From positions 1 through 12,953 of the forward strand of contig QNBQ01000014.1 in assembly GCA_003645735.1 (NCBI GenBank): a stretch of DNA of 12,953 bases, given 5' to 3'. The notes under the pieces were generated by a model that was not told the DNA's origin, made no database searches, and saw nothing but the letters and a program-made list of their open reading frames with translations. Of this stretch, positions 2,875 to 12,896 are shown piece after piece. Source of the stretch: Candidatus Poribacteria bacterium (GTDB taxonomy: Bacteria > Poribacteria > WGA-4E > B28-G17). Made by a program: the position numbers and the translations under genes. Every line of letters begins with the position of its first letter. The stretch's first letter is position 1.

Positions 2875-3555
2875 ATGAGGGGAAGGCTCATATTCGGCCT
2901 TTTCGGAAGGTCGCCCTTCAAACCCCTTCACGACCACATGATGAAGGTCAAGGAGTGCACCTCCCTCATAAAGCCGCTTTTCAACGCCCTGATAGCGGGC
3001 GATCTCGAGGAGATGCGCAGGATCGCCCAGGAGGTCTCCAAAGCCGAACACGAGGCCGACAAGATAAAAAACGAGATCAGATCCCACCTTCCCAAAAGCA
3101 TCTTCCTCCCCGTCGCCAGGGAGGATATCCTGGTCTTTTTGAGGGAGCAGGACGCCATAGCCGACGCCGCCGAGGAGGTGGCCCTCTTCCTGACCCTGAG
3201 GGAGCTGAGGATACACGACAAGATAAGGGGGCCTTTGATGGAGCTTGTGGACAAGGTCCTGGACACGAGCGACACGGCCGCCAAGGCCACGAGCGAGATA
3301 CATCTGCTTTTCGAAACGGCCTTCAGGGGGAAGGAGAAGGAGAGGGTCTTATCGATCATATCCGAGGTGGAGCGGAAGAAATGGGAGGCGGATATGGCCA
3401 GGTTATCCTTTGCAAGGAGCATCTTCGAGATCGAAGAGGAGCTCGATCCGACCACGATCTACCTGCTGCTTGAGATCTCCTCCGGCTTGAGACGGATAGC
3501 CCACCACGCCGAAAACGCCTGCGATTACCTCAGGATGATGCTTTCAAAGGGGTGA
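2875..3555 (+). CDS. DUF47 family PhoU-like phosphate transport regulator
   Basis: This 226-residue, almost wholly helical cytoplasmic protein matches the DUF47/TIGR00153 family, distant relatives of PhoU that sit beside PiT phosphate permeases and are thought to modulate them. Family features visible are KAEHEADKIKNEIR at 56-69, HLPKSIFLPVAREDIL at 71-86, the acidic QDAIADAAEE at 92-101 and a C-terminal AHHAENACDYLR at 209-220. The acidic clusters are the likely metal-binding sites. Length is standard for the family. The start has an AGGAGG site (2864-2869) 5 nt upstream. The gene ends 20 nt before the PiT start, so the two are almost certainly co-translated and act as a pair. Confidence 0.93.
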   Translation: MRGRLIFGLFGRSPFKPLHDHMMKVKECTSLIKPLFNALIAGDLEEMRRIAQEVSKAEHEADKIKNEIRSHLPKSIFLPVAREDILVFLREQDAIADAAEEVALFLTLRELRIHDKIRGPLMELVDKVLDTSDTAAKATSEIHLLFETAFRGKEKERVLSIISEVERKKWEADMARLSFARSIFEIEEELDPTTIYLLLEISSGLRRIAHHAENACDYLRMMLSKG

Positions 3556-3575
3556 TGTGACAGGGGAGGTAGGTG

Positions 3576-4808
3576 ATGCACGAGTATTGGATCTTGGGGG
3601 CCGCCGGTGTGCTGGGGCTTTACATGGCCTGGAACATCGGTGCCAACGACGTGGCCAACGCCTTCGGCACATCGGTCGGCTCCGGGGCTCTCACGCTGAG
3701 GAAGGCGCTGATAGTAGCGGCGATATTCGAGTTTTCGGGCGCCTTCTTCGTCGGAGCGCACGTGACCGATACGGTCAGGAAGGGGATCGTCGACCCGATG
3801 CTCTTCCAAAACGACCCCGACCTGTTCCTTTACGGGATGTTATCGGCGCTGCTGGCGGCGAGCATATGGATCAACATCGCCACCTACTTCGGCCTTCCCG
3901 TCTCGACCACCCACTCGATCGTCGGCGCCATAGTCGGCTTCGGCCTGGCGAGCGGGGCGGGGTCGATCTCCTGGATGAAGCTCGTCCACATCGTCCTCAG
4001 CTGGATCATCTCCCCCATAGCCGGGGGGATCATCGCATACCTCGTCTTCCTGGCCGTCCAAAGGAAGGTCCTAAGCTCCGAAAGCCCCGCGGCGTCCGCC
4101 GTCAGGTTCATACCCGTGATCGCCCTGCTCACCTTCTCATCGCTCGCCCTGGCGATGATCTACAAAGGCCTGAAGCCCCTAAAGCTGAACCTGCCCGCCC
4201 CCAAGGCCGCCGTGGTCTCCCTTGCCGTCGGGTTTATCGGCATGATCGCCTTCTACGTCGCCCTGAGGAGGTTCAGGAAGGAGACGAACCACGAATACGA
4301 TTTCGTCGAGCGGAACTTCAAATACCTACAGGTTCTGACCGCCTGTTACGACTCGTTCGCACACGGCGCGAACGACGTCGCCAACGCCGTGGGGCCGGTT
4401 GCAGCGATATTCGCCATAGTCAAAACCGGCCGGATAGCGGCGAAGGTCCCCGTCTCGCCGATCATCCTGGCCATAGGAGGCCTGGGGATAGTGATAGGGC
4501 TTGCAACCTGGGGCTACAAGGTGATAGAGACGATCGGCAGGAGGATAACCGAGCTCACCCCCACCAGGGGGTTTGCGACCGAGTTCGCCTCCGCCACCGT
4601 TGTGCTTTTCTGCTCGAAGCTGGGCCTGCCTGTCAGCACCACCCACGCCCAGGTCGGCTGCACGGTCGGGGTCGGCCTCGCAAGAGGGATAGCCGCCATA
4701 AACCTGAGGGTGGTGAGGAACATAATCCTGTCCTGGATCGCCACCCTCCCCATTTCGGCCGCCATAGCGGCCGGGATATACGAGCTGCTCGTCCATCTCT
4801 TCAAATGA
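3576..4808 (+). CDS. PiT family inorganic phosphate permease
   Basis: This 410-residue inner-membrane transporter takes up phosphate, usually as a metal-phosphate complex or with a coupling ion. It shows the internal duplication of the PiT family: GANDVANA at 22-29 and 264-271, and LPVSTTH at 107-113 and 351-357. The signature VERNFKYLQVLTACYDSFAH lies at 244-263, just before the second GANDVANA. About ten hydrophobic segments flank a short hydrophilic centre. The ATG at 3576 is preferred over the in-frame GTG at 3573 because GGAGG (3565-3569) lies 6 nt before the ATG and only 3 nt before the GTG. It follows its usual partner DUF47 and precedes sugar-related genes by 22 nt. Confidence 0.95.
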   Translation: MHEYWILGAAGVLGLYMAWNIGANDVANAFGTSVGSGALTLRKALIVAAIFEFSGAFFVGAHVTDTVRKGIVDPMLFQNDPDLFLYGMLSALLAASIWINIATYFGLPVSTTHSIVGAIVGFGLASGAGSISWMKLVHIVLSWIISPIAGGIIAYLVFLAVQRKVLSSESPAASAVRFIPVIALLTFSSLALAMIYKGLKPLKLNLPAPKAAVVSLAVGFIGMIAFYVALRRFRKETNHEYDFVERNFKYLQVLTACYDSFAHGANDVANAVGPVAAIFAIVKTGRIAAKVPVSPIILAIGGLGIVIGLATWGYKVIETIGRRITELTPTRGFATEFASATVVLFCSKLGLPVSTTHAQVGCTVGVGLARGIAAINLRVVRNIILSWIATLPISAAIAAGIYELLVHLFK

Positions 4809-4830: not shown

Positions 4831-5769
4831 ATGGGGGTCGAAAAGGTCGAATACGGCGGATGGCCGAACTGTTACAGGCTTTTCAACGATCAGATAGAGC
4901 TCATCGCCACCTCGGACGTGGGGCCGAGGATCATAAGGTTGGCCTTCATAGGCGATGAGAACCTGTTCGCCGAGTTCGAGGAACAGATGGGGATGACCGG
5001 CGGGGATGAGTGGAGGATATACGGGGGACACAGGCTGTGGCACGCCCCCGAATCCAAGCCCCGCACCTATTACCCCGACAACTCCCCCGTCCAGGTCGAA
5101 GCCGAGGGGTTCAAATTAAAGCTCACCCAGCCGGTCGAGGAGACGACCGGGATAGGCAAGGAGATCGAGATAAGGCTCCTTCCAAGCTCGCCCGTCGCCG
5201 AGGTCATCCACAGGCTGAGGAACGAGAACCTGTGGGCCGTCAAGCTCGCCCCCTGGGCGCTTACGGCCATGGCCCCGGGCGGATACGCCATCATACCCCA
5301 GCCGGAATACATACCCCACGAGGAGAAGCTGCTTCCGGCCAGGCCGATGGCGATCTGGCACTACACCGATATGTCCGACCCGAGGTGGAGGTGGGGCAGG
5401 AGGTTCATCCTGTTGAAACAGTCCCCCTCGATGTCAAAACCGTTGAAGCTCGGGGTCGGGAACGAACAGGGCTGGGCGGCATACAGGAAGGATGACAAAC
5501 TCTTCCTGAAGAGATACACCCATTTCGAGGGGATGGAATACCCCGACTTCGGCTGCTCGACCGAGGTGTTCACGAACGACAGGATGCTGGAGCTTGAAAC
5601 GCTGGGGCCGTTCGTGGAGCTTCAGCCGGGGGAGGTCGTCGAACACGTCGAGATCTGGGGCCTCTTCAGGGTCCCCGATATGGGCGAGAGCGAGGAGGAG
5701 ATGGACGAGAGGTTGAGGGCCTTCGTGGCGATGTTGGACGCAGCGATCTCGGAGGAAAGGGAGGGCTGA
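4831..5769 (+). CDS. DUF4380-like, galactose-mutarotase-fold protein
   Basis: This 312-residue predicted soluble protein has no signal peptide. It is mostly beta-strand and resembles DUF4380 and other galactose-mutarotase-fold proteins that bind or epimerise sugars. Supporting points are TSDVGPRII at 27-35, GGHRLWHAPE at 65-74, a middle region with conserved Trp and Pro residues (PWALTAMAPGG, 141-151), and a C-terminal LGPFVELQPGE...EHVEIW at 258-276 that is typical of the fold. No catalytic pair can be assigned with confidence. It has a strong GGAGG site (4820-4824) 6 nt before the ATG. It ends 3 nt before the oxidoreductase gene, so the two are translationally coupled and probably work on the same sugar or derivative. 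The family call comes from remembered motifs. Confidence 0.72.
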   Translation: MGVEKVEYGGWPNCYRLFNDQIELIATSDVGPRIIRLAFIGDENLFAEFEEQMGMTGGDEWRIYGGHRLWHAPESKPRTYYPDNSPVQVEAEGFKLKLTQPVEETTGIGKEIEIRLLPSSPVAEVIHRLRNENLWAVKLAPWALTAMAPGGYAIIPQPEYIPHEEKLLPARPMAIWHYTDMSDPRWRWGRRFILLKQSPSMSKPLKLGVGNEQGWAAYRKDDKLFLKRYTHFEGMEYPDFGCSTEVFTNDRMLELETLGPFVELQPGEVVEHVEIWGLFRVPDMGESEEEMDERLRAFVAMLDAAISEEREG

Positions 5770-6958: not shown

Positions 6959-8359
6959 ATGTCCAACGCCGAGGTTTTAATTCAGATCAACCATTGGTGG
7001 GCGAGGGGGGATGTTCGGCCTGAGCTGTTGGAGAAGGTCGAGCGGGCGGTGTTTCCCCATATCCTTGAGGCGCTCGGTGAGAGGCAGATCGTGTTGATCC
7101 AAGGCCCGAGGCGAACGGGGAAGACCTCCCTTATGTTCCAGCTCATCCATCATCTCATAAGGTCTGGGGTCGATCCGAGGCGTATCCTCTACGCCTCCAT
7201 GGATGATCCCCTTCTCGATAAAAGCTCGCTTTTCCAAGATATCATCGATCTGTTCGAAACCACCTTGCTTGGACAACCGCTTCTTGAGAGTTCCGAGAAG
7301 CTCTACCTGTTCCTGGATGAGATCGCTCATTTCGAAGGCTGGGAGCTGATGGTTAAGCGGTTTTACGATCAGAGATACCCGTTCAAGTTCATCCTCTCCA
7401 GCTCCTCATCGGCCTTCTTGGAAAGCCGATCGAAGGAGAGCCTGGTCGGCAGGGCGATCGTGTTTCACCTCCTTCCTTTCTCCTTCTCGGAATACGCCCA
7501 GCTCAAGGGCAAGGAGCGGATAAGGAAGTGGAGGGAGATCCTCGAACCCCTGTGGACTCGATTCTTCCTGGAAGGGGATGCCGATAGGCTGATCAAAGGG
7601 CTTCGGGAGGTGGATAGGGAGCAGAGGCTGATGGGAAGGGAGATCGAGCTGATTTTGAGGGAATACTTGTATGAAGGCGGCTTCCCGGAGTTCCTACAGC
7701 TGAGAAGCCCCCTCCTCCGCTCCAGATATTTCTGGGAGAACGTGGTCGAGAGGGTGCTCTACCATGATATACCGGAGATCTTCCGCGTCGAGGATAGGGA
7801 GCTGTTGCAGAGGATCTTCATCTATTGCGTTTCGCACAGCGGCAGCATAGTCAACATCGTGGAGCTGGGCAGGGATTTCGGCGCCCCGAGGCAAACCATC
7901 TCGAACTACCTGAACTACCTCAAATCCTCCCTCCTGATCCGCCCGTTGGTCAGATACGCCAGGACGGCTGCCGGGAGGTTGAGGGGCTTCAAAAAGGTAT
8001 ACGCATGCGATAGCGGATTAATGGTCCACCTTCAAAGGTTGACCAGGGAGCAAGTGGAGAGCCGAGGGCTGTGGGGGGTGCTGGCGGAGATCGCCGTCCT
8101 CGCCCAGCTTCAACGTTACCATCCTCACGCCCACATCTACTACTACCGCGAGCGTGATAGGGAGGTCGATTTTGTGATAGAGCTGAACGGGAGGCTGATT
8201 CCTTTGGAGGTGAAGTATCGCAGGGAGGTTGAAATCCCCAACGGCCTACGTCTCTTCAAGAGGCGGTTCAAAACCGAATTCGAAATCCTCATAACTAAGG
8301 ATCAACTGCTCACCTCCGGGACGGTTCTGTTCGTTCCGCTTCGCCTTTTCCTCTGCTGA
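6959..8359 (+). CDS. AAA_14/DUF4143 family ATPase
   Basis: This 466-residue predicted cytoplasmic ATPase starts with the family-typical HWWARG (12-17). A P-loop GPRRTGKTS is at 49-57, Walker B LYLFLDEI at 115-122, and a sensor-like run of serines at 147-151. The C-terminal half is DUF4143: a region around 302-322 resembles a helix-turn-helix (ELGRDFGAPRQTISNYLNYL), and a PD-(D/E)XK-like nuclease fold follows, with Glu377, Asp404 and Glu417/Lys419 as candidate active-site residues. This family is widespread, multicopy and poorly understood, and is sometimes called archaeal-type or prokaryotic DEXX ATPase. The gene has its own promoter and is not part of the preceding operon. Its last 50 nt overlap the tail of the decayed exporter gene on the opposite strand. 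Confidence 0.92.
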   Translation: MSNAEVLIQINHWWARGDVRPELLEKVERAVFPHILEALGERQIVLIQGPRRTGKTSLMFQLIHHLIRSGVDPRRILYASMDDPLLDKSSLFQDIIDLFETTLLGQPLLESSEKLYLFLDEIAHFEGWELMVKRFYDQRYPFKFILSSSSSAFLESRSKESLVGRAIVFHLLPFSFSEYAQLKGKERIRKWREILEPLWTRFFLEGDADRLIKGLREVDREQRLMGREIELILREYLYEGGFPEFLQLRSPLLRSRYFWENVVERVLYHDIPEIFRVEDRELLQRIFIYCVSHSGSIVNIVELGRDFGAPRQTISNYLNYLKSSLLIRPLVRYARTAAGRLRGFKKVYACDSGLMVHLQRLTREQVESRGLWGVLAEIAVLAQLQRYHPHAHIYYYRERDREVDFVIELNGRLIPLEVKYRREVEIPNGLRLFKRRFKTEFEILITKDQLLTSGTVLFVPLRLFLC

Positions 8360-9009
8360 GGCCTCCCCTTGCGATCCCGAAAGCGGGGGCCAGGAAGAGG
8401 AGGGTGGTGATGAAGCAGGAGCCGATCCCTATGGTCAGGACCGTCCCCATGCTCGCCATGCCCCGGTGTGTCATGAAGATGAGCGAGCCGAAGCCTATCA
8501 TGGTGGTCAGCGAGGTCAGAAGTATCGCCTTGCCGGTGTTGGCGAATATCGTCCTGACCCCGCCGCCCCCCTCCACCCTATAGCGATGGATGAGGTGCAC
8601 CCCGTCATCTATCCCTATCCCGATGATAAGCGGCAGGGCGATGACGTTGTTGAAGTTGAGCTTCATACCGGCTAATTTGGTCAGCCCGGCCATCCAAGCC
8701 GTCCCGGCGATAAGGGGAACCATCGCCATAAAGGCCAGAAGCGGGTTTTTAAAATCGATCAGCAGCAGAACGACCACCGCGGCCACGGCCAGGATCAGCG
8801 CCCGCTTCCCATCCTCGCCATGGCGTAATCGGGGCTCATATCGAATCCATCCAGAAGCTCGTGGTAAAGCTTGACGGAGGGCATCCCCTTGGGTTCGAGG
8901 CTCAGCATATCGTATTCGAACTTCAGTTTAGTCGCCTGATAGCCGAGGAAGGCCGTTATGAGGATCGCCGCTCCGACGCCGAACCATCCCGTTCGCCCGT
9001 AGCTTTCGC
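8310..9009 (-). pseudogene. RND/MMPL family exporter remnant
   Basis: Two fragments of the second half of an RND (HpnN-like/MMPL) transporter lie here. The first (9009 to about 8825) has a helix equivalent to TM7 followed by LKFEYDMLSLEPKG and FDMSPDYAM. The frame then shifts near 8820 and resumes as GEDGKRALILAV..., with five helices equivalent to TM8-12 including the conserved GIGIDDGVHL, and stops at 8310. Such proteins are usually near 750-900 residues. The entire first half and the second periplasmic domain are missing, so no functional pump can be made. It lies downstream of the LolA-like and barrel remnants on the same strand, matching a known lipid/envelope export gene order. The five-helix fragment has a possible GTG start at 8786 but is unlikely to work alone. 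Confidence 0.8.
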
Positions 9010-9459
9010 TCATTATAGGCGAACTCGCCACAGAGGCCGACGCCTAGAAGCTCGCCTATGAAGTCGAACCCGTAAAGCCACCTTCCCTCCTCCAGGTGGT
9101 GAAGGCGAGGTAGTCGGTCGATTTGTGGACCGTCCCGGCGAGGGTGAGCGATAGATCGAAACGTCCCAGGCCCCACTTCAGCTTGAAAAGCTTCTTCGAA
9201 TCCTTCCACTCCTCCCCGGCGCGTAGATCAACACTGCCTCTCCCCGTTCCCCCACCGGCAGATCAGCCCTCAAGGCGGTGTGGCCCGGCTGCTCATAGGT
9301 GGGGTCGGGCAGATCTTTAACGTTGAAGATGTTGGTCGGGTTCCAGGCGTATCCCGTTCCGAGGGATATCTGCTGTTCGCCCACGGTCAGGTCGAACCGT
9401 TTGAAGGAGAGCTTCAGGTAGGCGTTGTCGAGGAAGCTTCTGTCCTCATAGCGGCTATA
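9010..9459 (-). pseudogene. Outer-membrane beta-barrel protein remnant
   Basis: Reading across three frames recovers one barrel-like protein segment. Frame A has YSRYEDRSFLDNAYL, GEQQISLGTGYAWNP and DPTYEQPGHTALRADL. A one-base shift near 9214, in a GGGGAGGAG run, leads to KLFKLKWGLGRFDLSLTLAG and STDYLAFTTW. Another shift near 9085 leads to WLYGFDFIGELLGVGLCGEF. The alternating aromatic pattern and the GxQ...G.GYAWNPT motif resemble porin-like proteins encoded with RND exporters. The signal peptide, N-terminus and C-terminal strands are missing. Both ends abut other broken genes directly. Confidence 0.65.
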
Positions 9460-9667
9460 GGGACAAAGCTTTTCTTATCGACCCAAGTTCGTAGACGAAC
9501 GTTCGTTTCCCGCCCGACCCGGAGATCACCGTCATCCTCGCCTCGGCCCTGACGCTCTCCCGGCTCATCAATTCGTTCACCCTCTTTACGATCTCCTCAC
9601 CGGTCAGCTCTGAGGGCGCGCCGGCGGGAGCATACAGGACGAGCAGGAAAGCCGCTGAAACGATCAT
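9455..9667 (-). pseudogene. Outer-membrane lipoprotein-sorting protein (LolA-like), truncated
   Basis: This 70-codon frame begins with a signal peptide (MIVSAAFLLVLYAPAGA) and continues with ELTGEEIVKRVNELM and RAEARMTVIS, the start of the LolA-like 'outer membrane lipoprotein-sorting protein' family found beside RND exporters. Homology stops near residue 63. The frame then hits a stop at 9455 as barrel sequence begins. Full members are roughly 230-260 residues, so most of the protein is gone. It starts 28 nt after the upstream GH130-glycosyltransferase gene and retains AGGTGG and GGGAGG ribosome-binding-like sequence. It may still be translated into a short secreted peptide. Confidence 0.72.
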
Positions 9668-9695
9668 CTTCCACCTAGCTCCACCTCCCTCGGCC

Positions 9696-11963
9696 TCATC
9701 CCGGGAACAGCACCCCGTCCTTATCGTCCAGGGGGTAGAATATCGGGCCGTTTTTCTCCCAGAGCCTCATCCACTCGTCCGCCGAGCTGAGCTCCCTCAC
9801 GCCCCTTAGGAAATCGTCGAGCTTTATCCTCGCCAGCGCGAGCTGTGGTATCTCGCCGTAGGCGGTGTAGGTGACGTAGATGTAATCGCCGATCAGCGTC
9901 AGCCGCGGATCCTCGCATCCCCCTATCTCCCTGCAGATGCCGTAATTCCTGATGTGATCCCTCCTCCTCTCCTCCTCGTCCCGGGGCAGCTCGTGGTATT
10001 CCAGCTCCGGCAGGAGTATGGGATAGGGAAGCCTGCCGTCTATGTGGAGGCCGTCCCTGCTCCAGGCGAGCCCTATCCTGGAGATGCCGTCGTATCCCAG
10101 CGCCCTGTAGAGGATGTAGGTGATCCCGCCGATCCTGATGGCCCCGGCGTTGTAGACCAGCCTCTCCCATTTGACCTTCCCCCCGTTCACCTCGATCTCG
10201 GCGTCGGGCCGCGGTTTGAGGATCGGGTTGCCCGGGAACCTCCTGAGCCTCCCGCAGGGCGGGTATCGGACGGGGCTGAGGATCGCCTTGAAGACCTCCA
10301 GCAGCTGGGTGGCGACCCTGCCCGGCGAGTTCCGATAGGCGAAGGATCTCGCCTTGGAGAGAAGCTCCTCCCTGAACCGCTCGTCGTTCAGGACGAGCCT
10401 GATCGCATCTTTGAGCCCCTCGTCGTCCCTGTATTTCAAAACCTCCCATCTGAAGGGCGCGAAGAACCTGTTCTCCCTGGCGATGACGGGGGTTCCCCAG
10501 CCTATTATCTGGAAGCAGGTGGATGAAAGCACGGCCCCCTCGCCCTCAACGCCCTCGCCCTTGTCGAGCACGACGGCATCCGAGGCGGCTACGTATTCGG
10601 CCCTCCTCATCCAGGACGATATCTCGATCCTGATCTCATCGTATCCCCTTTCGAACCCCAGCTCCTTCAACCTCCCCTCGAGCTTCCTCCTCTCCTCCTC
10701 GTCGTAGACCAAGGCGAGCAGGTATATCCTCGGATCTTCCTCCCTCAGCTCGCTCAACGCCCGGAACGGGGTGACGAAATCATACTCGCCGAAGGTCAGG
10801 ATGATCCTCTTCTCCTCCGGCAGCCCCAGCTTTCTCCTCGCCCCGAGCTTATCGATCCTCAAAACCGGGTGGCAGGGGAAATCGGTCAGGTAAATCCTTT
10901 CTCGAGGGTAGAAACGGGCCATAAACTCGTTTTGCTCGGGGAGGAAGTTGATCACCGCATCGACATACTCCAGGCACCTCCAGAAGATATGTCCCTCCGG
11001 CTTGGGCTTGTTGTCGTGGTTGAGCAGCGCGATCTTAACCCCTTTGGATCTGATCTTGGGGAGCAGATCGAGCAGCTCCTCGCAGGGCAACATCCCCAGA
11101 TCCTCCAACAACAACAGGTTTATCCCCTCCTCATCTATCGCCCTGAGCAGCGGATCAGGGTCGAGCGGCTTTAGTCCTTCGACCTTCCTTCCGGCCGTCG
11201 CGTAGCATCTCGTGACGAACTCCTCGTCCTCCACCTCAAGCGGCCTGCCGTGAGGAGCCTCCCTGTAATGGGTGAAGACCCTCACGTGATATCCGTGATC
11301 GCGGAGCCACTCGACTATGGGGGCGGTGTGACGGGCCACGCCGCCGTCCGTGTTCCACGAGCCCATCACGGCGATCCTCATCTGAGGCTCGCAAATCCAC
11401 CTCTTCGGGTCTTCCCTCACCTCCTCCGGGATGAGGTCGGCGACCTTTCCCTCGGCGACGCAGATCACCTCGTCGGCCACGCCGTAGTAGACGAGTATCT
11501 CGTCGTCCTCATTGAGCGTCTCAGTTGAATCCTTGTATTTCGGGACGACGCCGCACGTGAAGACCACGTTCGGAACCCATCCGTTGAGCTGATAGCTCCT
11601 CTCCTCGTCCGTCTCATCCTCGCCGCCCGGCTCGATGATGGGGTTGGGCGATCTGTAGATTATCCTCCTCGGGTTTTCGAGATCGCTCAGGACGACCCCC
11701 AGGCTGTAGATCCTTTCCCCGTCCCTCGTCCCGACGCCGTGGTATATCTGCAGCCATCCGAACTCCGTTTTGAGCGGCGGGGCTCCGGCGCCTATCTTCC
11801 CGGAGTCCCAGCTCCCCGGCCTGGGGATCATGAACGTCTCCCCCACCGGGTTCGAGCTTTCGAGATCCCCCATTGAGACGATCTGCATGTCCGGGGGTAT
11901 CCTGTGGATCAGGATCGCCCTCCCCGCCAGCTCCGGGAAGATCTTCATGAATTCCCTGTCCAT
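9696..11963 (-). CDS. GH130-glycosyltransferase fusion with circularly permuted GH130
   Basis: A 755-residue protein without a signal peptide. Residues 7-180 are the C-terminal half of a GH130 beta-mannoside phosphorylase/hydrolase propeller: FPELAGRAILIHR at 9-21, KIGAGAPPLKTEFGW at 56-70, YHGV at 74-77, PNVVFTCG at 131-138, VYYGVAD at 158-164. Residues 195-562 are a GT-B (GT4-like) glycosyltransferase: MRIAVMGSW, GGVARHT at 207-213, and a late helix-rich end IIGWGTPVIARENRFFAPF at 486-504. Residues 570-755 are the N-terminal half of GH130: FPGNPILKP at 576-584, VYNAGAI at 603-609, YILYRALGY at 616-624, IGLAWSRDG at 630-638, and CEDPRLT at 683-689 with the likely catalytic Asp685. This half ends at KDGVLFPG, just where the first half takes up. 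It could build or cleave mannosides while transferring sugars. The start has GGGGAGG 6-7 nt upstream. Confidence 0.85.
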   Translation of the reverse strand: MDREFMKIFPELAGRAILIHRIPPDMQIVSMGDLESSNPVGETFMIPRPGSWDSGKIGAGAPPLKTEFGWLQIYHGVGTRDGERIYSLGVVLSDLENPRRIIYRSPNPIIEPGGEDETDEERSYQLNGWVPNVVFTCGVVPKYKDSTETLNEDDEILVYYGVADEVICVAEGKVADLIPEEVREDPKRWICEPQMRIAVMGSWNTDGGVARHTAPIVEWLRDHGYHVRVFTHYREAPHGRPLEVEDEEFVTRCYATAGRKVEGLKPLDPDPLLRAIDEEGINLLLLEDLGMLPCEELLDLLPKIRSKGVKIALLNHDNKPKPEGHIFWRCLEYVDAVINFLPEQNEFMARFYPRERIYLTDFPCHPVLRIDKLGARRKLGLPEEKRIILTFGEYDFVTPFRALSELREEDPRIYLLALVYDEEERRKLEGRLKELGFERGYDEIRIEISSWMRRAEYVAASDAVVLDKGEGVEGEGAVLSSTCFQIIGWGTPVIARENRFFAPFRWEVLKYRDDEGLKDAIRLVLNDERFREELLSKARSFAYRNSPGRVATQLLEVFKAILSPVRYPPCGRLRRFPGNPILKPRPDAEIEVNGGKVKWERLVYNAGAIRIGGITYILYRALGYDGISRIGLAWSRDGLHIDGRLPYPILLPELEYHELPRDEEERRRDHIRNYGICREIGGCEDPRLTLIGDYIYVTYTAYGEIPQLALARIKLDDFLRGVRELSSADEWMRLWEKNGPIFYPLDDKDGVLFPG

Positions 11964-11980
11964 CTCGCACCTCCCCTCTG

Positions 11981-12024: not shown

Positions 12025-12053
12025 TTGACTTTCCCGCTCGGGTGTGTTATCGT
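12025..12053 (+). promoter_or_regulatory. Promoter of the secreted-protein gene
   Basis: TTGACT (12025-12030), a 17-nt spacer and TATCGT (12048-12053) form a fair sigma70 match. The start near 12060 gives a leader of about 27 nt. It sits back to back with the promoter of the divergent fusion gene, with 14 nt between the two -35 boxes. Confidence 0.45.
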
Positions 12054-12086
12054 TTTAGGCAGCAGATCTTCAGCAGGAGGTGTGGG

Positions 12087-12896
12087 ATGTCAGGTAGGGT
12101 TAAGATCCTCGTGCTTTTCCTCGGCCTCGGGGTCGCCCTTCCCAGCTGGGCGGGGAAGATCGGCGACGTGGGGATCTTCTGCGACAACACCAGCTGGATA
12201 GACGCGGCCGCCGCGAGGCGCATAGCCGAAAGCCTCGTCAAAGAGGTCACCTCGGCGAGGAGCGTCAAGATCTACAACCTGGACGGCATCGCCCAGTTCG
12301 CCAAGGAGAACACGGGCGACGGAGAGGTCGACGTGATCATGACCTTCGGTTACTTCCCCGAGAGCATCTATCCGCCGGGAAACGCCAAGCCGGACGGCTC
12401 CATAGCCGAGCTGTTCCTGGAGGACGGGAACATGTTCCTCAACACCGCCGATTACATCTTCTACGTCTCCAAGGGAGGGGGCGTGAACGCGACCGGCGGC
12501 CTGCAGAACATGATGGACATCCCCGGCATCACGATGTGGGGCGATAACACCGCCGTCACCCCCACCGACGACGGCAAGAAGTTCATGCCATCGCTCAAGC
12601 CCTATCCCACCTGGAGGCCGTTCCACCTGAACGAGCTTCAAGACCCCTGGGAGGCCGAGACGATCTTCGCGGTCGATCAGTCCGGCACCAAGGCCGATCC
12701 GGTCGTGGTGAAGGATAAGGAGACGGGCGGCAGGATAGCGATCGCCTTCCAGGTCGGCCTCGATAAGGTCCCCGAGGATCTGAGGACGAAATGCCTCATC
12801 GAGTTCTTCAACAACTGGCTCTCGTCCATACCAGAGGCCGCCCCGGTCAACCCCAAGGACAGCCTGCCTATCACCTGGGGGGCTTTGAAGAGGTGA
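12087..12896 (+). CDS. Secreted protein of unknown function
   Basis: This 269-residue protein has a clear signal peptide (MSGRVKILVLFLGLGVALPSWA, cleavage likely after A22 or G23). I do not recognise the family with certainty. The alternating strand/helix pattern, with VGIFCDNTSWIDAAAARRI near the mature N-terminus, VDVIMTFGYFPESIY in the middle and GGRIAIAFQVG near 210-220, suggests an alpha/beta fold similar in outline to class I glutamine-amidotransferase-like (ThuA-like) proteins. That is only an impression. The C-terminus (PKDSLPITWGALKR) is a distinct tail after a proline-rich linker. The ATG at 12087 is chosen over an upstream GTG at 12042 because AGGAGG (12075-12080) lies 6 nt before it and the signal peptide begins there. 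It is divergent from the GH130 fusion. Confidence 0.85.
   Translation: MSGRVKILVLFLGLGVALPSWAGKIGDVGIFCDNTSWIDAAAARRIAESLVKEVTSARSVKIYNLDGIAQFAKENTGDGEVDVIMTFGYFPESIYPPGNAKPDGSIAELFLEDGNMFLNTADYIFYVSKGGGVNATGGLQNMMDIPGITMWGDNTAVTPTDDGKKFMPSLKPYPTWRPFHLNELQDPWEAETIFAVDQSGTKADPVVVKDKETGGRIAIAFQVGLDKVPEDLRTKCLIEFFNNWLSSIPEAAPVNPKDSLPITWGALKR

Follow-up and report, generated by a model that had tools for sequence, protein, structure and literature searches.

The described proteins closest to the one considered here are Teth514_1788 and Teth514_1789 of Thermoanaerobacter sp. X514, GH130 beta-1,2-oligomannan and beta-1,2-mannobiose phosphorylases that are its best sequence matches in the Protein Data Bank (PDB 9fj8, 9gph, 7fip). 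For Teth514_1788, the residue list in PMC4264767 gives Asn28, Asp92 and Asp281 as holding mannose at subsite -1. Also among the closest systems are the GT108 mannosyltransferase-phosphorylases of Leishmania (PDB 6q50, 6q4y), which provide a parallel in that, in the portion of PMC8950772 concerned with them, both activities are placed in one propeller. GH130 and GT4 appear as separate genes in the relevant section of PMC8790579, and a non-exhaustive literature search found no paper on fusions of a glycosyltransferase (GT) with GH130 or on permuted GH130, nor one linking circular permutation with a glycoside phosphorylase. Here we describe a gene in a 12,953-nucleotide stretch from Candidatus Poribacteria (contig QNBQ01000014.1 of assembly GCA_003645735.1; hereafter the window), located at 9696..11963 on the minus strand. 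The Teth514 enzymes and the window protein share the Asn, Asp and Asp of subsite -1, and the former are five-bladed propellers with 40% identity to the model of an unpermuted relative of the latter. They are, however, stand-alone proteins of ordinary order without a GT lobe, whereas the window protein is rotated around such a lobe. Overall, the window protein resembles a beta-mannoside phosphorylase of GH130 to which a GT-B lobe is attached. We consider it highly probable that the gene is functional and that its product is a GT-GH130 fusion circularly permuted in nature, likely a beta-mannoside phosphorylase with a GT4-like lobe.

Domain order, relatives and reality of the gene

The gene is one uninterrupted open reading frame of 755 amino acids without internal stop, ending at a stop codon at 9696-9698. 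A sequence-only reading of this DNA had proposed the order GH130 C-half, GT-B, GH130 N-half, and Pfam bears this out: family PF04041 matches in two stretches (102.7 bits against a cut-off of 26, whole-protein E-value 2.4e-29), with weak GT4 matches between them. Residues 1-186 (11406..11963, minus) constitute the C-half, that is, the second part of the propeller, and include a match to Teth514_1788 (independent E-value 2.4e-25, residues 7-175). They are followed by the GT4-like GT-B lobe (residues 195-565; 10269..11381, minus) and by the N-half, the first part of the propeller (residues 572-755; 9699..10250, minus). By sequence and key residues the protein belongs to GH130.

The two halves were compared with a profile of 286 positions made from nine ordinary GH130 rows, eight of them distinct (L062 equals L018). 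Residues 8-176 match profile positions 139-286 and residues 573-754 match positions 1-141, so that every position is covered and three are covered twice. When the C-half is placed after the N-half by script, the window protein (P0001) matches as one domain with 186.6 bits, as against 119.0 and 62.4 bits for the halves separately. The halves are therefore complementary, with little overlap and none missing, as had been claimed. Reordered P0004 and P0005, two of the relatives introduced below, also match as one domain, while reordered P0003 still gives two segments; of four unpermuted proteins used as controls, P0011 gives a single-domain match, and the matches of the loop-bearing P0006, P0010 and P0031 divide at that same point.

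About 5.8 billion proteins were searched, and from 7,994 scored candidates 56 matches were obtained. Four run C-GT-N, namely the window's own protein (as P0002), P0003, P0004 and P0005, 27 have the order GT-N-C (P0006-P0032, with P0020 and P0022 being shorter pieces), and in the remaining 25 the section map detects no GT of the window type. P0003, P0004 and P0005 come from several public sources, are 73-80% identical to the window protein and have the same order and the same new ends. A second search, with a profile of the permuted proteins, again recovered these four with full coverage and, among 120 listed of 306, none besides, order here being judged from coverage. The permutant is therefore not unique, there being four distinct members in the searched database, the window protein included. 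The 27 others are the unpermuted GT-GH130 fusions that the sequence-only reading had suggested looking for; they have the same two domains, and include P0011 from a Thermoprotei archaeon and P0031 from Dictyoglomus, under source names such as 'glycosidase' or 'predicted GH43/DUF377 family glycosyl hydrolase'. P0006, for example, shares 61% identity with the window protein across its GT and N-half, and 60% across its C-half.

Within the window's phylum, 84 genomes were searched, and a GT-GH130 protein was found only in the window's own genome (G000) and in G001, the only other searched genome of the window's family; it is permuted in both. Two more genomes have just GH130-like or weak matches, and PF04041 occurs in nine of the 84, in eight of them above cut-off, some of these matches being short repeats. 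The G001 gene is 81% identical to that of the window, and does not represent a fifth kind, since its identity to P0003 reaches 97% (733 of 757). Its neighbourhood is unlike the window's: 17 base pairs (bp) separate it from a preceding xylose-isomerase-like TIM-barrel gene, and 13 bp from a following phosphoglucomutase/phosphomannomutase-domain gene that is cut by the contig end. Over 755 codons, the window and G001 genes differ by 0.123 nonsynonymous substitutions per nonsynonymous site (dN) and 1.04 synonymous substitutions per synonymous site (dS), giving a dN/dS of about 0.12, a rough value given a dS near 1; by part, the ratio is 0.11 in the C-half, 0.13 in the GT lobe and 0.09 in the N-half.

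These data bear on whether the permuted gene exists at all. The draft assembly of the window's genome is fragmented, with 538 contigs and a completeness of 76.6%, and the contig could have wrongly joined two copies of a normal GT-GH130 gene. Such a misjoin is extremely unlikely, because three further permuted proteins with the same ends come from different public sources, the G001 gene stands among other neighbours, dN/dS is about 0.12 along the whole length, and the flanks of the window and of locus L008 hold no remnant of a second copy (best tblastn E-value 0.91). Furthermore, the P0002 cluster, identical to the window protein, is on a contig of 20,663 bases as against 12,953 here.

The AlphaFold2 model of the permuted protein, computed as a single chain, has a predicted local distance difference test score (pLDDT) of 88 and a predicted template modelling score (pTM) of 0.87, and 26 of 27 secondary-structure elements in the model of an unpermuted relative recur at homologous places. 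The idea that the halves reassemble as one propeller with the transferase lobe between them is thus supported as a prediction: both chain ends would fold together into one five-bladed GH130 propeller, to which the GT lobe would be tethered at both its ends. The sole stretch of the unpermuted model with pLDDT under 50 is the loop that holds the new ends of the permutants.

New chain ends and a proposed route to rotation

The ends of the chain are as first described, namely C-terminal KDGVLFPG and MDREFMKIFPELAGR. Between the VLFP (or VLY) motif and the HR motif lie 34-37 residues in 24 of the 27 unpermuted fusions, the exceptions being P0011 (11 residues), P0021 (14) and P0019 (29); for P0025, P0026 and P0030 the spacing was counted by eye from printed strings. 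The additional residues form a loop ending in FPEL, and it is here that the permuted proteins have their ends, starting within the loop (MDREFMKIFPEL) and stopping just ahead of it (KDGVLFPG), with P0004 five residues longer. Set against its unpermuted homologues, the window protein thus has its parts in rotated order, with the former termini linked and the present ones located in a loop, and is a clear case of a fusion enzyme circularly permuted in nature.

The Phe-Pro codons and the heptamer TTCCCGG had been noted at both ends of the gene and taken as the scar of a tandem duplication. The heptamers are indeed present, at 9701-9707 and 11933-11939, but the argument from them falls, because LFP flanks the loop on both sides in 20 of the 27 unpermuted proteins and TTCCCGG/CCGGGAA occurs six times in the window. 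Judged from the relatives' sequences, both Phe-Pro motifs most likely predate the rotation.

To place the permutants, we used a tree of 29 rows, comprising the four permuted proteins (reordered by script) and 25 unpermuted ones; it omits the duplicate P0002, the pieces P0020 and P0022, and P0033-P0057. All four permuted proteins group in a single clade (support 100/100), which midpoint rooting places inside the unpermuted set, although its exact sister is unsure, with supports of about 80 and long branches adjacent. By this phylogenetic evidence the C-GT-N order is derived from GT-N-C.

A contig scan using an alignment of the shared part gave six loci, where an earlier scan had given none, and each of the six is unpermuted, truncated at a contig end, broken or unfused. 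At L018, L050, L055 and L056, in genomes G089, G084 and G088, the GT and GH130 are encoded by two genes, with the GT gene first, and such unfused pairs are found in bins labelled in the records as Omnitrophota, Spirochaetales and Aenigmatarchaeota. Separate adjacent genes are likely the arrangement that preceded fusion. At L014, on a Spirochaetales contig, a fused unpermuted gene stands beside a stand-alone GH130 gene, together with a solute-binding protein and a LacI-type regulator, both assigned from family matches, and with reading frames judged permease-like by reading.

We propose that the ancestral fusion consisted of a GT lobe, GH130 N-half and GH130 C-half, and that a flexible loop interrupted its propeller halfway. 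A single lineage would then have acquired an in-frame linker of about 18 residues connecting the original C-terminus to the original N-terminus, together with a new start codon and a new stop codon inside the mid-propeller loop, resulting in a chain with the C-half first, the GT lobe next and the N-half last. In-frame duplication with loss of the outer pieces is the standard route to circular permutation, and we infer that duplication followed by such loss was the route taken here. The linker between C-half and GT lobe is 18 residues long in all four permuted proteins; in 15 unpermuted proteins, the old C-terminal tail and N-terminal lead together amount to 7-23 residues (median 15), a range that includes the linker length.

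A permuted catalytic beta-propeller with extant unpermuted and unfused relatives is a test case for topology change without loss of function. The likely stages – separate neighbouring genes, fusion, loop insertion and rotation via the loop – can be placed in sequence, and as permuted and nearest unpermuted proteins are about 60% identical, the effects of rotation and double tether on stability and activity are directly measurable. The family also suggests a pairing of the GT lobe with beta-mannoside phosphorylases, seen here in bins whose labels span several phyla of bacteria and archaea.

Active site and glycosyltransferase lobe

N605 (10149..10151, minus), D685 (9909..9911, minus) and D164 (11472..11474, minus) correspond by motif to Asn28, Asp92 and Asp281 of Teth514_1788 (numbers in the PDB chain are one ahead), and are invariant in all four permuted proteins. 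Asp685 had been put forward as an active-site residue, and it aligns by its EDPR motif with the candidate catalytic acid Asp92 (Asp98 of Teth514_1789). The active site would be built from both arms, with D164 contributed by the N-terminal arm and N605 and D685 by the C-terminal arm.

A ring formed from two chain ends could in principle also close between chains, and the order might then be real while the halves form no working ring within one chain, being either a degenerate leftover or engaged in a domain swap between two chains. The pTM obtained for one chain, the invariance of the three subsite residues and the purifying selection acting on both halves all argue against this alternative, which we regard as improbable, though a domain-swapped dimer is conceivable.

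The basic residues R21, K56 and H75 are kept as in Teth514_1789, and likewise as in Teth514_1788 except that K56 is Arg there, and they are candidates for the three phosphate-binding residues. GH130 phosphorylases contact phosphate through three basic residues, according to the passages of PMC4599007 on this point, whereas the hydrolases lack these and have a glutamate pair. K748 is a positional candidate only for the conserved lysine associated with beta-1,2 specificity (Lys199 of BT3780 in PMC4599007). The reaction is most likely the reversible, inverting phosphorolysis of a beta-mannoside to alpha-mannose 1-phosphate, and by kinship the linkage is probably beta-1,2. In G001, the phosphomannomutase-type neighbour would take mannose 1-phosphate onward; a flow of this kind is described for N-glycan use by Bacteroides in a section of PMC4264767.

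A number of points weigh against the reading as a functional permuted phosphorylase. The window protein reaches none of the NCBIfam GH130 equivalog cut-offs (best 149 bits against 450), though the split order may depress a whole-length score. The permuted C-half model has a short helix (31-35) that is absent from the unpermuted control model, the alignments behind the two AlphaFold2 models share sequences and are thus not independent, and ring closure is read from pTM and matched elements, not from coordinates. Fold searches with the whole permuted model gave GT matches only among the best 50 listed in each, and the propeller was for this reason assessed via the unpermuted relative. No tandem-duplication intermediate was found in a search that admitted proteins up to 1.75 times the query length, which excludes a full double copy. 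Substrate, activity, the role of the GT lobe and the coupling of phosphorolysis to glycosyl transfer, which the sequence-only reading had suggested, are deductions. Finally, catalysis by the GT lobe is doubtful, because the E-x7-E motif of GT4 is not shown.

GT4 enzymes have this motif near the donor site. Placed from the following G-x-P in an 11-row sequence alignment, its two positions are occupied in the window protein by A477 and an invariant Q485. The lobe is conserved, has a GT-B fold and is assigned to GT4 by fold only, its GT4-type Pfam scores being below cut-off (22.1 against 29.7, 18.4 against 28.5 and 17.3 against 25 bits). PimA, a GT4 mannosyltransferase dependent on guanosine diphosphate (GDP)-mannose (PDB 2gej), also counts among the closest known systems; it is 17% identical and is tied with BshA to within 1 Z, and the E-x7-E pattern is not seen in the window protein.

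If active, the GT4-like lobe would act on the same glycan as the propeller. The protein could then have two active sites within one chain, one building or priming a beta-mannan from a nucleotide sugar and the other trimming this back to mannose 1-phosphate, with rotation having been selected since a double tether aligns the two sites; we think this rather unlikely. An alternative that we take more seriously, while still leaning somewhat against it, is that the lobe is a structural or glycan-binding scaffold in a single-activity phosphorylase, the permutation itself being common to this alternative and to the reading given above. The Gln at the second Glu position and the Pfam scores under cut-off both favour a scaffold, as does the GT region of the Dictyoglomus-type proteins P0023-P0032, which is far more diverged (best piece 29-80 bits) than that of 15 nearer full-length relatives (P0006-P0019 and P0021; 379-528 bits).

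The GH130 part of P0023-P0032 is well kept beside this strongly diverged GT region, which may mean that GT activity has been lost in that group.

Surroundings of the gene and other GH130 proteins

Directly 5' of the ATG of the permuted gene is a Shine-Dalgarno-like GGGGAGG (11970..11976, minus), recognised by sequence reading and putatively functional. Divergent from the gene, at 12042-12896 on the plus strand, is a reading frame for a 284-amino-acid protein that neither Pfam nor NCBIfam matches at the thresholds applied. Downstream, at 8310-9690 on the minus strand, are pieces resembling a decayed cluster of LolA-like, outer-membrane-protein and MMPL (HpnN-like) genes, with a family match for the MMPL piece and the others identified by reading.

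Farther away, positions 635-1254 contain an array like clustered regularly interspaced short palindromic repeats (CRISPR), with nine repeats sharing a core of about 36 bases at a spacing of 71-73 bases; there is no Cas protein among the nine window proteins scanned with Pfam. At 2875-4808, a PhoU-like DUF47 gene precedes one for a PHO4 phosphate transporter, and the product of 4831-5769 is similar to the TTE1925 mutarotase family, scoring 352.6 bits where the cut-off is 550.

Outside the window, many proteins from the two protein searches are about 1,110-1,240 amino acids long and carry a C-terminal GH130 domain behind some 850 residues (e.g. P0034, P0048 and P0069). This front part has no Pfam match in the three tested, and the named sources of such proteins include Tepidanaerobacter, Thermosediminibacter and Syntrophomonas.
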